Below are positions 3,255 through 23,911 of a stretch of 24,985 nt of DNA, piece after piece (the stretch's first letter is position 1; each line of letters opens with the position of its first letter). The notes under the pieces were generated by a model. The model was not told the DNA's origin and searched no databases. It saw only the letters and a list, made by a program, of their open reading frames with translations. Source of the stretch: a virus; IMG/VR virus record IMGVR_UViG_3300045003_000005, positions 1 through 24,985 of that record; one strand, written 5' to 3'. The translations under genes and the position numbers were made by a program.

Positions 3255-4517
3255 ATGGCGAACGAAGCAAACGGCGAAGGTGCAACCAACGAAGGCGTGT
3301 TGGGTGCGATTGACGAAGCGCTTGGCGAGCTTCTTGGAGGCACCAATGAGACGGATACTGACACTGGTGACACTGGTGCCGAGAGTGGCGACGGTGTGGG
3401 CGAGGAGGGTGGCCATTCGGCTGCTGATGACGCTTCTGGCGAAGCTCATCAGGGCGACGAACATGGAGGGGATGAAGCTGGCGGAGATGAATCAGCGGGC
3501 GAAGGGGCTCAACCCGCCGCTGCCAAAGGCTCCGACGAGTCAGACAAGTCCTATGCCGATACCGTCAAAGACGCAACCAAACTCGGTATTCAGCAGCGGC
3601 ATGACAACGGGCAGATCAAGTCCAAAGCCGAGTTGCAAGCTGAAATCGCCGCCAAGCAACAGGGCGGAGACGGAAAGCAAGGTGGTCAGGCTCCGGCCAA
3701 GAAAGCGGCCGATCCTGTAAACGACCCGATCGACAAGAACCTGTCGCAGCCGACGCAGGAGCGTATCCGCACGCTCATTGGCCGCACGAAAGAAGCGGAG
3801 ACTCGCGCGCAAACGGCTGAAAGCAACTTCAACACGTTCGTCACGGGGCTCCAGTCGGCCGGCGTCACGCCCGAGCAATACGGCGAGACGGTGAGCTTCC
3901 TCGCGCTGTTCAACAGCAACGACCCGAAGCAGCAGTCGCAAGCGTTGGGCATCCTCGAAGACATGGCTGACAAGCTGGCGTCGTACCTGGGTGTCGAGCG
4001 TAAGGCGTCTGACCCGCTGGCAAACCACCCTGACTTGCAGGCGGCGATCCAGAAGCGGGAGATTACGCCGCAGCTCGCTCGGCAAATGGCGGTCACGCGG
4101 AACCAACAGAACTTTCGCCAGGAAATCAACACGCATGCGCAGAACGCGCAGACGGAACAGCAACGGTTCGAGCAGGAGAAGCAGACCGCTATCAACGATC
4201 TGAACCAGCTCGAAGTGCAGCTACAGCAGCAGGACCCGCTGTACGCGCGGAAGAAGGCGGCCATCATCGACTCGTTGAAGGCAACCCTTGTGGACATTCC
4301 GCCGTCGAAGTGGAAAGCGGCTTTCCAGCGCGCGTATGCTTCCGTGAAGGTGACAGCGCCTCCGCCGAAGCCGAAGACACCCGTCAATCAACCGATGCGC
4401 GCCGGCCGGTCGCCTGCGGGCTCTGGTGCGAACGCCAAGACTGGTGGGCCTGGGCTGAACAACGGTGGACCGAAGTCTATGTTCGAGGCGATGTGGGGAA
4501 CAGAGCCTCCCAAGTAA
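3255..4517 (+). CDS. Scaffolding protein candidate (420 aa)
   Basis: Likely internal scaffold that guides capsid assembly and then exits. The first 95 residues are strongly acidic and Gly-rich (repeated GDxGGDE-type runs); residues about 120-150 are Gln/Lys-rich. The middle and late part (about 165-370) is helical and very rich in Gln and Glu, with coiled-coil-like runs such as EQQRFEQEKQTAINDL. The C-terminus is basic and Pro/Gly-rich, as in scaffolds that bind the coat through a basic tail. It sits between portal and capsid genes, and a CAGGTGA ribosome-binding site precedes ATG 3255. There is no Ser-His-Asp protease signature, so I do not call a protease fusion. The identification is from composition and order. 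Confidence 0.75.
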   Translation: MANEANGEGATNEGVLGAIDEALGELLGGTNETDTDTGDTGAESGDGVGEEGGHSAADDASGEAHQGDEHGGDEAGGDESAGEGAQPAAAKGSDESDKSYADTVKDATKLGIQQRHDNGQIKSKAELQAEIAAKQQGGDGKQGGQAPAKKAADPVNDPIDKNLSQPTQERIRTLIGRTKEAETRAQTAESNFNTFVTGLQSAGVTPEQYGETVSFLALFNSNDPKQQSQALGILEDMADKLASYLGVERKASDPLANHPDLQAAIQKREITPQLARQMAVTRNQQNFRQEINTHAQNAQTEQQRFEQEKQTAINDLNQLEVQLQQQDPLYARKKAAIIDSLKATLVDIPPSKWKAAFQRAYASVKVTAPPPKPKTPVNQPMRAGRSPAGSGANAKTGGPGLNNGGPKSMFEAMWGTEPPK

Positions 4518-4524
4518 CAACTTC

Positions 4525-4600
4525 TGGCGTGTAGCTCAGTAGGTAGAGCGCCGCCCTGTTAAGGCGGTGGTCGCAGGTTCGAGCCCTGCCGCGCCAGCCA
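4525..4600 (+). tRNA. tRNA-Asn (anticodon GTT)
   Basis: A complete cloverleaf can be drawn. The acceptor arm TGGCGTG pairs with CGCGCCA (one T-G pair). The D arm is GCTC/GAGC with an AGTAGGTA loop. The anticodon stem CCGCC/GGCGG holds loop CTGTTAA, giving anticodon GTT. The T arm GCAGG/CCTGC has loop TTCGAGC. U1-A72 and discriminator G73 match bacterial tRNA-Asn, and CCA is encoded. It is 7 nt after the scaffold stop and 10 nt before the next start, so it must be excised from a late mRNA or be read as part of it. Bases 4600-4604 (AGGAG) are also the ribosome-binding site of the next gene. The surrounding structural genes use AAC for Asn heavily. Confidence 0.96.
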
Positions 4601-7464: not shown

Positions 7465-8550
7465 ATGGCGGCGCAAGGCGGCATAGATGACGTTGTTGGT
7501 ATAGCTGATACGATCGCGAGCCCCGTTGGGGCCGTGACAACTCGGCCGCTTATCCCTGTCGCATGGCAAAGCGTTGCCCCCACATTGACGACTGGAAGCA
7601 GCCCGACCCCACCCGCGCAGGGCGGCCTTGAATCGGATGGACCCAAGGCTACTGATCCTGACTTCTATGTTGGTTCGTTTGCGCTCGCCAGCGTGGCACC
7701 AACACTTGGTGTTGGCTCAACTACGACACCGCCCGGCAAGGGAGATATCGGGGATGTGTTCGGCGCTCCAGACCTTGGCATGGACGCTCAGGTCGCGGGG
7801 CTCGCGGCGTTTCAGAACGTAGCACCGACGATCGGGCCTGTCTCGGGCAGCTACCTTCCGCCTATCGCGCACGGCGACGTGGGCGACACGGGCGGCCCGA
7901 CGACACTTCAAGGTGACACAAACGACTCAAATGCGGGTGCTGGCACGCTCACGTCGTGGTCGAGCGGCACTGTGACGCTTACTTTGGGCAGTATCCCACA
8001 ACCTCGAAATCATGGGGATATAGGTGAGATGTACGGCCAAGGCGAAGGGCCGATTGGGCAAGTCGTTTGGCAGGTTGCAGTACCGACGTTGGGTGTTGGC
8101 GCGCTAGTGACACCCACTGGTAAAGGTGACATCAATGATCCCTACGCATGGATGGACTCCATTGCGTATTTCACTAGCCAACCGTACCCGATTATCTATA
8201 GCGAGAACGTCAGCCCATCGTGCGCGATCACGGGCGGCATCATGTACCTGGGCGTGTACTCCTACAGTGAGAACATGAGCCCATCGGCTACTATCACGGG
8301 CGGAGCATTCACCTCCTCACTGTTCGTTTACACCAACTGGCCGGCTGAAAACATGAGTGCGTCCGCGACCATAACGGGCGGCAGCTTCTTCCTTGGTTTG
8401 GTGGTTTACTCGAACTGGCCGGCTGAGAACATGAGCCCATCGGCTACTATCACGGGTGGAAACTTCTTCCAGGGGCTTGTAACCTACTCGAACTGGCCGG
8501 CTGAGAACATGAGCCCGAGCTGCCATATTACCGGAGGAACTTTCACATGA
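7465..8550 (+). CDS. Repeat-built virion protein, possible fibre or tail appendage (361 aa)
   Basis: The protein is made of two kinds of repeat. Residues about 30-230 hold five degenerate units with a VAPTLGVGS core and a GKGDIGD-type end (variants GQGGLES, AHGDVGD, NHGDIGE, GKGDIND). Residues about 247-361 hold five units with SENMSPSATITGG followed by a hydrophobic YSNWPA-type strand, period 26 residues in the last four. It has almost no helix-forming sequence and few charged residues, which suggests a beta-repeat fibre or solenoid. CGGAG before ATG 7465 and the terminator just upstream make it the first gene of the tail block. It couples to the next gene by ATGA. I know of no function for this repeat combination; virion appendage is inference. 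Confidence 0.75.
   Translation: MAAQGGIDDVVGIADTIASPVGAVTTRPLIPVAWQSVAPTLTTGSSPTPPAQGGLESDGPKATDPDFYVGSFALASVAPTLGVGSTTTPPGKGDIGDVFGAPDLGMDAQVAGLAAFQNVAPTIGPVSGSYLPPIAHGDVGDTGGPTTLQGDTNDSNAGAGTLTSWSSGTVTLTLGSIPQPRNHGDIGEMYGQGEGPIGQVVWQVAVPTLGVGALVTPTGKGDINDPYAWMDSIAYFTSQPYPIIYSENVSPSCAITGGIMYLGVYSYSENMSPSATITGGAFTSSLFVYTNWPAENMSASATITGGSFFLGLVVYSNWPAENMSPSATITGGNFFQGLVTYSNWPAENMSPSCHITGGTFT
8203..8547 (+). repeat. Tandem coding repeats, 78-bp period
   Basis: Units begin (GAGAAC or GAAAAC) at 8203, 8269, 8347, 8425 and 8503: the first spacing is 66 bp and the next three exactly 78 bp. Bases 8269-8300 and 8425-8456 are identical over 32 bp, two units apart, so similarity is at DNA level and points to recent duplication or gene conversion. 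All spacings are multiples of three, so unit number can change without a frameshift. Confidence 0.9.
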
Positions 8551-16476: not shown

Positions 16477-17703
16477 ATGGCTGGTCTCGGAGACTTTCTA
16501 GCGGGCGTTGGTGGCGCTCCGGTCAATCGGCCGGGGCTTGAGGCGTTTGTCGCCAACAGCCAAGCAATGAACGGGCTGCGCACCGCGCAGACCGAGGAAG
16601 CGCTGTTGAATGCGCAGAACATACGCGACGAGCTGGACGCAAAGGGTCGCGTTGAGCAGGCGTTGGGTGACTTCCTGGGCACGCAGAACGATCCGCACGC
16701 CAAAGAGCACGCTTCGCTCATCAGCAACGTCATGCGCGCGAAGTTCGGCAGCTTCAAAGACTCTGAGGCTGGCCTTGGGGATGCACTGAAGAACATCAAC
16801 ACTCAGACCCTGATGAATCCGAACGCAGCCCCGGCTGCGCGCACGGCTGCGGACCAAGCCAACAACCCGAATGCCAACCCCTATCAGGTTGACCAAGGGC
16901 AGCTCATTCCGCGCTTTCAGGCGGACCCCAACCATCCGACCGTCATTCAGACGCCGGGCTCAGTGGCGACGCAGCACTCCCAGGAAGAGACTGCGCGGCT
17001 ACACGGCGCTCAGGCTGACGCGGGCGGCTTCAACCCCCATACGGCCGGCGTCAGCAGTTTGCCCCCTGAGCAGCAGGCGGCGATCCAACATGCTGTGGAC
17101 GAAGGGCGACTGAACTTCAAAGACATCAACAGCCGCAATGCGAACATCATCGGGAGCCTTGCGCTGAACAACCCGACGTACAACTTCAACCGTGCGGCGG
17201 CTGACGCGGCGTTGAGCCGGAACTCGACCTTCCAGCAGCGCGCCATGGTTGTGGACTCTCTGCCTGGGCTCATCTCGAACACGGCGTCGCTGGGCAAGAA
17301 GCTCAACTACCCGGACGTGCAGGTTGTTGGTCAGGCGAAGAAATGGCTGCTCGGACAGACCAACGACCCCGATCTGACGGAATACATGACCGCTCGCAAC
17401 GACGTGCTCATGAAGATCGCGAACGTCATGCGCGGCGTCGGTATGTCTGACAAGGCGCACGAGGCGGAAGTCGAGGCGATGAACCCGACTCTATCTCCGG
17501 CTGCACTCGATGCCTGGGTGAAGGGTCAGATGACCGCTATTGGTCCGTTGATGGAGGCGCAGAAACGTGCGGCTCACATTGGCGAGCCGGGCGTGAATGG
17601 CTCGACACCGCAAGGTGGAACGACTGCTGCCGCGCCACCGGGCAACGATCTGGCGGCTTTGGCGAAGGCCGAACTTCAACGTCGTGGGATTAAGGTGCCG
17701 TAA
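16477..17703 (+). CDS. Internal virion / ejection protein (408 aa)
   Basis: The N-terminus (MAGLGDFLAGVGG, then helical EEALLNAQNIRDELDAKGRVEQALGDFL) resembles helical ejection proteins. A Pro/Gln-rich middle (about 130-200) links to a helical C-terminal part (about 215-370; VDSLPGLISNTASLGKKLNYPDVQVVGQAKKWLLG, LMKIANVMRGVGMSDKAHEAEVEAM). No lytic transglycosylase motif was found. The AGGTGATTCATGG start context is nearly the same as that of the scaffold gene. The stop overlaps the next start (TAATG), coupling it to the largest ejection gene, so the two products probably act together, as P22 gp20/gp16 or T7 gp15/gp16 do. Confidence 0.62.
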   Translation: MAGLGDFLAGVGGAPVNRPGLEAFVANSQAMNGLRTAQTEEALLNAQNIRDELDAKGRVEQALGDFLGTQNDPHAKEHASLISNVMRAKFGSFKDSEAGLGDALKNINTQTLMNPNAAPAARTAADQANNPNANPYQVDQGQLIPRFQADPNHPTVIQTPGSVATQHSQEETARLHGAQADAGGFNPHTAGVSSLPPEQQAAIQHAVDEGRLNFKDINSRNANIIGSLALNNPTYNFNRAAADAALSRNSTFQQRAMVVDSLPGLISNTASLGKKLNYPDVQVVGQAKKWLLGQTNDPDLTEYMTARNDVLMKIANVMRGVGMSDKAHEAEVEAMNPTLSPAALDAWVKGQMTAIGPLMEAQKRAAHIGEPGVNGSTPQGGTTAAAPPGNDLAALAKAELQRRGIKVP

Positions 17704-20078
17704 TGGACCTGTCGCAACTTTCAACAGAGGACCTACAGGCGATCAGCAGCGGAGACATGAGTAAGGTCTCCGAGGCCGGTCTACGCTTGCTATCCGGTGC
17801 GCCGGCCGCTCCCACTGCGCCGAAGGAAGACCCGGCCAACATGAGTTTCGGCCGACAGCTTCTCGGCAACGCTGAGCTGGCCGGAAGCGCCATCGGTAAC
17901 ATTCCGCACGGGATCGCACATGCCGTGTCGGACCTATACCACCGGCTGAGCGGCGATCCCAACGCGAAGGACCCCAACTGGATCAACTCACTTCATGTGC
18001 CGACCGGAGAAGCCGGCCAGGAGTTGAGCCAAGCCCTCGGCAACAGTCTCACGCAGACAATCGACTCTACCGGCGCTGGCGGTGCGGTAGAGCGCGGCGT
18101 GAAAGCGATCAACGAGTACATGACAGGCGATCCAACGTCGCACACCCAGGCCATTGTGCAGGCGACAGCGCCGGCCGCGCTCGACATCGCCACCATCGCT
18201 GGTGCCAAGGGTATCCCCGGTGCTGTGCGCGGCGCTGCGGGTGATGTGGCAAACGCGGCTCGTGGTGTTGGGGAAGCCGTGCGCGGCACGGGTTTCGATA
18301 TCCCCGAGGAACCGAGTCCGGGTGACGTTGGGTTGAAAGCTCCAAGCAACCCGCCGTTGAAGCCACACCAACAGGTTGGCAACACGATCGGCAGCGCTGA
18401 GGCTGGTGTTCCCAAGGGAACACCGATCACTCCCGAGGCATTGGCCGAGGCGCGCAAGGCTCCTGGCGCTGTCATGGGGCGCGTCGCGGCAGCAACACCT
18501 GATGGCCCGATGAGCGCGGATGAGCTGGCGCAGCTCGACACCATTGGTGGCTCTGGCGTACCTGTCTCTGGCCAGGGCTCGATTGCCAACATCGAAGGTC
18601 TGCGCGGCAACCTGAAGAACATACTCGGGGCTGATGGTGTCACCGGCCGACAGAAAGTTGATTGGCTCCAAGCGCTCCGCACGAAGGGCTACAAAAACTC
18701 GGCTTCCCAGGACCCCGGTGCGCAGGAGTTGGGCGACGCTCAGCTCGACGCGGCCAACATACTCGAAGGTCACATCGAGCGAAGCTTGCCGAAAGATGCC
18801 GATGTTGATATCGACCAGTTCCGTGCCGCGCGCACTGCTCTGGCGAAGAACCACACCGTCGAGGCAGTCTCGAAGGGCGGCAACATCGACATGGCGGCAC
18901 TTGGCCGCATGTTTCAGCGCAACCCGAACCTGCTGACGGGCGGCCTGGGAATGCTCGGGCGCTTCGCGTCGGAGAACCCTGAACTGGTTGGCATGGGCAA
19001 CCGCTTTCAGGAGTCGCTGGGCGACATCGCCAATGGGGTGGACCTGACGAAGCCGGCGACGTGGCTCAAGCCCGTCACCGGAGTCGCCGGCCGGATTAAG
19101 GCAAATAGGGAAGCGGCGGCAGGAGTCGAGGCGGCGCAGCGCGCCTTCCCTGGAACCCCTCCCGAGCGCTTTGCGCCGATTGAGCGCGGACCCCCGCAAC
19201 CGCCGCCAGGGATGACGGCAGGCCCAATGGGCTCTCCGCCTGCGCCCGCTGGGCAGCCTGCCGACTTCTCACTCGCGGACGTGCTATCGCACGGCGTCGA
19301 GCAGAACCCGCCAGCGGGGCTCTCATTGGCTCCTGAAGTGGGTCTCGGCAATGAGCTGGCGGGCGTTACGTTCCGCAGCTCGCCCGAAGCTGTAGGGGCG
19401 CGGCCGGTGCAAGGCGGTGCCCCGCCGATGGCTCGGCGCTTTACAGACGACTTTGGTAACGAAGTGAATCCGAATGCGGAGCAGCCTCCTGCGCCGCCTA
19501 TGCTCGTCCAGCGTCTTGCTGGTGAGGCTCCGGCTACTGCCGATCGTGGCACGGTAAGCCGGTTAGGCAACATCCTAGCGGATATTGGCTCAGAAAGCCG
19601 CGTTGAGTCTACTCCTGTAGGCCAAGGGCGCTCCCCTACGTTCACTGGTGGTGTTCCCGAGGGAACACCGACCCGAACCGGCCCGACTCCGAAGGTTCAG
19701 CACGAAGTGGATGAGGAGACTGGCGCGCACACTGTCACTTCGAAGAACGGCGAGACGCACGGACAAGAAAGCGGCCCGTACCTGCTGGTCAAGAGGACCG
19801 ACACTGCAAAAGGCGCTCAGGGTAATGGTGAAGGCACCGCGAGAATGGAGGCGCTGATTCAGCAAGCCGAGGCTCGCGGGTTGAAGCTAGGCTCCGATGT
19901 GAGCGTATCGCCAGCTCAGGCGAAGGTGTACGAACGTCTCGGACGTATGGGATACCACGTCGTGAAAAACGACTTCGAGAAGTCCCCCACCACGGGCAAC
20001 CTTGTCTCGAAGGACCCTCGCAAGCCAGTGTTTGAGGTAAGCTCGCCGCTGGGCAGGGCGCTAGCGGCAGGGCAATGA
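17703..20078 (+). CDS. Large internal virion / ejection protein with C-terminal GNAT-like domain (791 aa)
   Basis: Largest protein of the ejection block. Residues about 40-180 are helical with small hydrophobic stretches. Residues about 290-470 include FRAARTALAKNHTVEAV at about 373-389 and GNIDMAALGRMFQRNPNLLTGGLGMLGRFA, a pattern I know from the C-terminal parts of large phage internal proteins. Residues about 470-680 are Pro/Ala/Gly-rich and probably disordered. The end (about 690-770) looks GNAT-like: QGNGEGTARMEALIQQAEARG (706 onward), SDVSVSPAQAKVYERLGRMGY (731 onward), where GxGxGT-like glycines would bind acetyl-CoA. A transglycosylase or protease motif was not found. Two identical-core palindromes encode GVPKGTP and GVPEGTP. 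DNA-ejection function is by context; the acetyltransferase call is tentative. Confidence 0.65.
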   Translation: MDLSQLSTEDLQAISSGDMSKVSEAGLRLLSGAPAAPTAPKEDPANMSFGRQLLGNAELAGSAIGNIPHGIAHAVSDLYHRLSGDPNAKDPNWINSLHVPTGEAGQELSQALGNSLTQTIDSTGAGGAVERGVKAINEYMTGDPTSHTQAIVQATAPAALDIATIAGAKGIPGAVRGAAGDVANAARGVGEAVRGTGFDIPEEPSPGDVGLKAPSNPPLKPHQQVGNTIGSAEAGVPKGTPITPEALAEARKAPGAVMGRVAAATPDGPMSADELAQLDTIGGSGVPVSGQGSIANIEGLRGNLKNILGADGVTGRQKVDWLQALRTKGYKNSASQDPGAQELGDAQLDAANILEGHIERSLPKDADVDIDQFRAARTALAKNHTVEAVSKGGNIDMAALGRMFQRNPNLLTGGLGMLGRFASENPELVGMGNRFQESLGDIANGVDLTKPATWLKPVTGVAGRIKANREAAAGVEAAQRAFPGTPPERFAPIERGPPQPPPGMTAGPMGSPPAPAGQPADFSLADVLSHGVEQNPPAGLSLAPEVGLGNELAGVTFRSSPEAVGARPVQGGAPPMARRFTDDFGNEVNPNAEQPPAPPMLVQRLAGEAPATADRGTVSRLGNILADIGSESRVESTPVGQGRSPTFTGGVPEGTPTRTGPTPKVQHEVDEETGAHTVTSKNGETHGQESGPYLLVKRTDTAKGAQGNGEGTARMEALIQQAEARGLKLGSDVSVSPAQAKVYERLGRMGYHVVKNDFEKSPTTGNLVSKDPRKPVFEVSSPLGRALAAGQ
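18405..18424 (+). repeat. 20-bp palindrome, copy 1 (inside ejection gene)
   Basis: GGTGTTCCC, AA, GGGAACACC: a perfect 9-bp inverted repeat with a two-base centre. In frame it encodes Gly-Val-Pro-Lys-Gly-Thr-Pro. As RNA it can form an 8-bp hairpin with a CAAG tetraloop. The second copy 1.24 kb downstream differs only in one centre base. Confidence 0.85.
19650..19669 (+). repeat. 20-bp palindrome, copy 2 (inside ejection gene)
   Basis: GGTGTTCCC, GA, GGGAACACC: identical to copy 1 apart from one centre base, on the same codon phase, encoding Gly-Val-Pro-Glu-Gly-Thr-Pro. I saw no third copy in the window. Confidence 0.85.
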
Positions 20079-23847: not shown

Positions 23848-23911
23848 CCCGAGCCGCCGCAATCTTGACACGGCGACTCGGGCGAGCGCGCGGACTTGAC
23901 TCCGCGCGCTC
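23848..23911. other. Two adjacent stem-loops between two leftward genes
   Basis: The first stem (23848-23859 with 23871-23882) has 12 pairs with one mismatch and an 11-nt loop. The second (23884-23894 with 23901-23911) is a perfect 11-bp stem, GAGCGCGCGGA with TCCGCGCGCTC. Both loops contain CTTGAC on the + strand. They fill most of the 129-nt gap between the phosphoesterase stop and the metallopeptidase start. Neither strand has a U-tract after the stems, so this is a weak terminator at most; it may be a regulatory or replication-associated structure. No promoter is clear in the gap. Confidence 0.6.

Follow-up and report, generated by a model that had tools for sequence, protein, structure and literature searches.

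Twin palindromes in a putative ejection gene belong to a scattered site family that accompanies a mostly basic, predicted helical phage protein

We analyzed the whole record of an uncultivated virus, 24,985 bases long (the window), in which one gene carries two near-identical palindromes. These palindromes belong to a family of sites that is restricted to particular phage lineages, co-occurs with one phage protein and varies in concert within genomes. Judging from sequence alone, the two palindromes are probably scattered binding sites of a phage-encoded dimeric protein, for which a mostly basic protein predicted to be helical is the best candidate.

The window covers late genes of a podovirus-like phage, with capsid and portal genes recognized via PHROG and a lysozyme via Pfam. 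Site 1 (18405–18424) reads GGTGTTCCC-AA-GGGAACACC (GGTGTTCCCAAGGGAACACC) and encodes GVPKGTP; site 2 (19650–19669) reads GGTGTTCCC-GA-GGGAACACC (GGTGTTCCCGAGGGAACACC) and encodes GVPEGTP. As an earlier note had reported, both are perfect 9+2+9 palindromes of 20 bp in the same codon phase. They lie in phase 0 (offsets 702 and 1947, both multiples of three) of a plus-strand ORF at 17703–20078 encoding a putative internal or ejection protein of 791 aa, and are spaced 1245 bases (3 × 415) apart. The earlier note called this the largest ejection gene. That label derives from the position and the length of the ORF, which has no matching Pfam or PHROG model; its only named relative is a protein of Xanthomonas phage PBR31 annotated as “putative internal protein C” (28% identity). 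The two sites are the sole matches in the window with up to three mismatches allowed. Dinucleotide shuffles of the window gave a mean of 0.03 matches, and two were reached in 0 of 100. Elsewhere, the window has a tRNA-Asn (GTT) amid structural genes (4525–4600), and G001, a complete relative of 47,158 bases, has this tRNA too. In-frame tandem repeats of ~66–78 nt (ENMSPSATITGG) at 8203–8513 close the ORF 7465–8550, and a hairpin at 23884–23911 (GAGCGCGCGGACTTGACTCCGCGCGCTC), probably a terminator, is kept in G001 (reverse complement, 5887) within an otherwise diverged stretch.

We compared the palindromes with the peptide that they encode. GVPxGTP is written GGN GTN CCN NNN GGN ACN CCN, in which six of the nine pairs are self-complementary whatever the wobble bases and only pairs 3–18, 6–15 and 9–12 are free. 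Because the peptide forces these six pairs, a perfect palindrome is much less surprising than it may seem. ORF homologues with ~28–39% identity retain GVPxGT at site 1 (GVPHGT, GVPPGT, VPEGTP) in non-palindromic codons, such as GTA CCG CAT GGC ACG for the GVPHGT of G112, and several retain GVPEG[TI] near site 2. The peptide is therefore older than the palindrome, and the alignments indicate that the GVPxGT peptides of the 791-aa ORF are ancestral linkers. L004, a nearer relative of the window than these homologues, keeps GVPKGVP at site 1 (GTG CCA AAG GGC GTG) with the palindrome absent, and keeps the palindrome at its second site. G001 has both ORF palindromes; its homologue of site 1 is GTGTTCCC-AA-GGGAACAC, and one of the two carries a double compensated change (CCT GAA GGA for CCC GAG GGA). 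The counterpart of site 2 (GVPEGT) is found in G001, L004 and a further relative, G123, at a different alignment position. In the window lineage, the palindromic DNA word is used at 10 of 11 VPxGT, against none of eight among the other relatives; the expectation is ~0.2% (p about 0.002) each. Palindromic codons are likewise used at 24 of 28 VPxGT in the 53-kb phages described below, which had been found by the motif (p about 0.002 each). The DNA motif is real and goes beyond conservation of the peptide. The earlier note was half right in holding the symmetry to be independent of the peptide: identity at the DNA level is supported, whereas six of the nine pairs are forced. It had also named relatives that keep GVPxGT without the inverted repeat as evidence against a DNA-level signal. 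Such relatives exist, but the motif, whose absence elsewhere the note would also have counted against the signal, is present in other genes and between genes in close relatives.

The core of the site family is GTTCC[CT]-N2-[AG]GGAAC (GTTCCY-N2-RGGAAC). G001 contains eight such cores, with none for the reversed-pattern control, and six are exact GTTCCC-N2-GGGAAC against ~0.003 expected; the 14-base form also gives eight matches and a reversed control of zero. Two of the cores are in the homologous ORF, and one each is in a DUF2800 (exonuclease-like) gene, the gene at 3624–4280 and the terminase gene. Those at 41575 and 45132 are intergenic, ~25–35 nt 5' of start codons, and the one at 31297 falls where the sole ORF called is doubtful. 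The terminase site (G001 29206, G123 23902) was counted as weak because the gene is conserved and the site, which encodes EWFPREHW, is probably peptide-driven. In a blind search for repeated half-sites, GTTCCC-N2-GGGAAC ranked first in the window, in G001 and in G123, and most other capsid relatives had no comparable repeat. G123 has three exact cores in 24 kb. Its two ejection-gene sites share a compensated change of the outer pair (GGTTCCC..GGGAACC); the first occupies a different linker than site 1 of the window. Most sites in the relatives, and both in the window, lie within ORFs as mechanically called, unlike the extragenic location of REP-type elements.

We scanned viral contigs with the 14-base form and found, among the matches listed, diverse and otherwise unrelated myophages of ~53 kb with many copies. 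These carry 5–8 copies each; the matches listed from the scan number at least nine in G129, seven in G132, six in G131 and five in G135, and four of the five listed for G135 have the shifted form TGTTCCT..AGGAACA. Most of the myophage sites are intragenic and read VPxGT, a frame that is favored by chance matches as well. Multi-site genomes carry about 4–8 sites each, and over the genomes tested the spacing is slightly more even than random (combined fraction 0.002). A literature search on the motif turned up only CRISPR and unrelated papers. Other repeats are also present. In an unrelated phage of 51 kb, GGTGTTCC/GGGAACACC half-sites cluster within ~200 bp 5' of a helicase-like ORF (L003:570–780). 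G130, G131, G132 and G135 have a second scattered palindrome, CTGACG-N4-CGTCAG, with variants and partly intergenic (L376–L387); several copies of this type lie just 5' of the candidate-protein gene in G132.

The candidate binder is encoded at 37148–37855 of G001 (235 aa; 210–246 aa across the family). In an ORF comparison, it was the only family common to all nine multi-site genomes, and it was present in one of 15 site-free capsid relatives. Of 25 records retrieved through the motif, it occurs in exactly the four with at least five matches and is absent from the other 21, counting among the matches listed. We also scanned for the protein only, with a four-row alignment of the family as the query. 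Seven of the records retrieved in this way (G154–G160) were read throughout, and all of them contain repeated sites; they carry the protein by construction, and the informative part is the presence of sites. G154, G155, G156 and G157 have six, four, two and four cores, respectively, with an A-T outer pair in nearly all, and G159, G158 and G160 have three, two and two copies with a 0-nt spacer. Two short fragments found by the protein have one match (G161) and none (G162). Exceptions in both directions occur: no site was detected in G122, which has the protein, and the protein is missing from G130 and G142, with three sites each. For motif-independent records, the association of sites with the protein gives a Fisher p of 5e-5, which ignores shared ancestry. 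Relatedness among the genomes of each group makes the counts non-independent, and the tests overstate independence. The window itself has two sites only and ends before the region of the candidate gene.

The candidate is predicted to be all-helical and has a pI of 9–10 in most members (6.5 in G160 and 8.2 in G158). A small ORF overlaps or closely trails its gene in most genomes examined. Searches of Pfam, PHROG and NCBIfam gave no match of note and no recognizable DNA-binding domain. Foldseek gave no match at E<0.1, the AF2 models being of medium confidence, and fold searches returned nothing convincing: helical rows reached Z of up to 6.5, which may reflect only a common arrangement. Comparison of the profile with solved structures retrieved designed proteins only. 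Neither a match nor a cultured-phage relative was found among 50,697 annotated phage records, and the protein was not detected in the 297 Acidobacteriota genomes searched, in a search that had no positive control. An HTH (HTH_3-like) protein of G001 (38157–38414) was rejected as the binder because it is also present in eight relatives without the repeated palindrome. A hairpin with 13-bp arms (AGTCGAGGTTCCCGCTGGGAACCTCGACT, 38073–38101) lies between the candidate operon and this HTH gene; it has the GTTCCC half-site in common and was not counted as a site because its spacer is 3 nt.

Site variants were compared with the protein and with the phage backbone. The sites of G154–G157 have the form AGTTCC..GGAACT. 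Within this group, the DNA polymerase of G156 is only about 24–26% identical to those of the other myophages, with no sheath or helicase match, and the polymerase of G154 is closest to those of G132 and G135. The backbone of G131 is closest to G155 and G157 (helicase 70% and 60%); its sites are not of the A-T type, and its candidate protein shares only about 38% identity with theirs. As read from these comparisons, the outer base pair and the spacer change genome-wide in step with the protein, not with the phage backbone.

The main rival is a host factor. A partition, nucleoid or repair protein would recognize the sites, phages of the same host would converge on them and the phage protein would be a mere passenger. 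This would fit a site that is common to two unrelated phage groups. The 5 Mb of an Acidobacteriaceae MAG (G004) contain 43 GTTCCC-N2-GGGAAC cores, against none for the reversed control, with five cores within 620 bp directly 5' of the chromosomal parA-parB (L186/L391, C40:24260–24879), and TGTTCCCNNGGGAACA agrees with the general parS sequence at 10 of 14 positions. However, the shifts in outer pair and spacer between genomes follow the phage protein. The 18-base form (one mismatch) was matched in only six of 100 sampled genomes of the G004 family, and the 96 sites in 257 Gb of genomes are near chance (~60 expected). We consider a host factor unlikely. An Acidobacteriaceae origin was rejected: the G004 elements are intergenic and REP- or parS-like, and only those six of the 100 family genomes sampled had any match. 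The G004 palindromes are often paired ~26 bp apart and might be a variant parS or a REP family. An immunity repressor could instead use the sites as operators or stoperators, blocking transcription initiation or elongation, a reading that we find somewhat more doubtful. Repressors with sites scattered over each genome are known (PMC9283540, PMC10516654), and the two intergenic G001 sites are close to start codons. Against this, most sites are intragenic, which argues against both promoter operators and cluster A stoperators. L5-type stoperators are asymmetric and oriented, but the site here is symmetric. Eight site-free relatives conserve the HTH gene of G001, and no integrase was noticed in those G001 ORFs that were read.

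Far less probable is that repeated GVPxGT linkers alone produced the palindromes, with codons self-complementary by happenstance. The ancestral peptide and the six forced pairs speak for it, as do exact matches to the motif elsewhere among viral contigs, which are mostly in the VPxGT frame (73, 25, 19). The peptide-only reading is strongly contradicted by the site-bearing phages, which use identical codons at 34 of 39 VPxGT compared with ~0.2% expected and none of eight in the other relatives, and by copies of the site that are intergenic or in other frames. The remaining suggestions of the earlier note, namely paired RNA hairpins, a mobile palindromic element or recombination that deletes 1245 bp, draw on the perfect symmetry and on the spacing by a multiple of three, and together they are the hardest to credit. 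Site 1 aligns without gaps to homologues that lack the palindrome, so there was no insertion at site 1, and a mobile element is disfavored. Among 43 T-type sites, 15 depart from the outer pair, and only T/G (3) is compatible with G.U pairing; the rest are mostly G/A, T/C and C/A. These departures do not track G.U pairing, which disfavors RNA hairpins, and are as expected of degenerate DNA half-sites. The 1245-bp region is kept in all relatives compared, which leaves a deletion unsupported. Binding sites for a protein were the fourth suggestion of the earlier note, and the scattered sites, the protein co-occurrence and the concerted variants favor it over the other three.

We infer that the candidate protein binds the sites directly, as a dimer, because the sites are symmetric, the half-site is degenerate (GGGAACM), the changes are concerted genome-wide and the sites are linked to one protein clade. 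One subunit would occupy each arm, each reading GGGAACM. Its role would be genome-wide, since there are ~4–8 sites per genome, mostly intragenic and spaced somewhat more evenly than random: the protein may organize or silence the phage DNA or mark it as self, rather than control a single promoter. An intragenic site would be tolerated mainly in the VPxGT frame and gained there through synonymous changes. More tentatively, the protein and its small partner could form an undescribed module that binds a 14–18-bp palindrome every several kb, mostly within genes, and organizes, silences or marks the phage chromosome. Such a module would move between podoviruses and myoviruses, with sites rebuilt partly by synonymous changes at VPxGT. 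If protein binding is correct, an unnamed phage protein family would be tied to a defined DNA target by sequence analysis, with the half-site, the spacing and the clade-specific base pair predicted. The outer-pair forms would be GTGTTCCC-N2-GGGAACAC for the G001 candidate versus TAGTTCCC-N2-GGGAACTA for that of G157. The site system would be genome-wide and largely intragenic and would leave a peptide signature, VPxGT, with which similar phage systems could be found.

We compared the site family with known systems. The sites of ParB and Noc (parS, NBS) are 14–16-bp palindromes with TGTT..AACA ends that are bound by genome-scale binding proteins. The general parS sequence, TGTTTCACGTGAAACA, agrees at 10 of 14 specified positions and differs in the centre (CCC-N2-GGG here). 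The candidate is not recognizable as ParB, and no ParB-family protein stood out among the G001 ORFs or among the ten early G001 proteins scanned, a subset of the genes. The start-associated sequences of cluster K mycobacteriophages are also short repeats scattered in a phage clade, with inverted repeats in about half and clade-specific bases; they are tied to translation starts and their binder is unknown (PMC3203893), whereas most copies here are intragenic. Cluster A mycobacteriophages have near-identical stoperators scattered over the genome and bound by one phage protein, the L5 repressor, whose HTH monomer binds 13-bp asymmetric, oriented sites in promoters and short intergenic gaps (PMC9283540). 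The sites here are palindromic, with no defined orientation, and mostly intragenic, and the candidate has no recognized fold. SPBRE of SPbeta is a 15-bp promoter motif whose master repressor, MrpR, is tyrosine-recombinase-like (PMC10516654). The candidate bears no recognizable relation to MrpR, but SPBRE too was a repeated element found in silico, and it was later shown to be the target of an unsuspected phage DNA-binding protein (PMC10516654).
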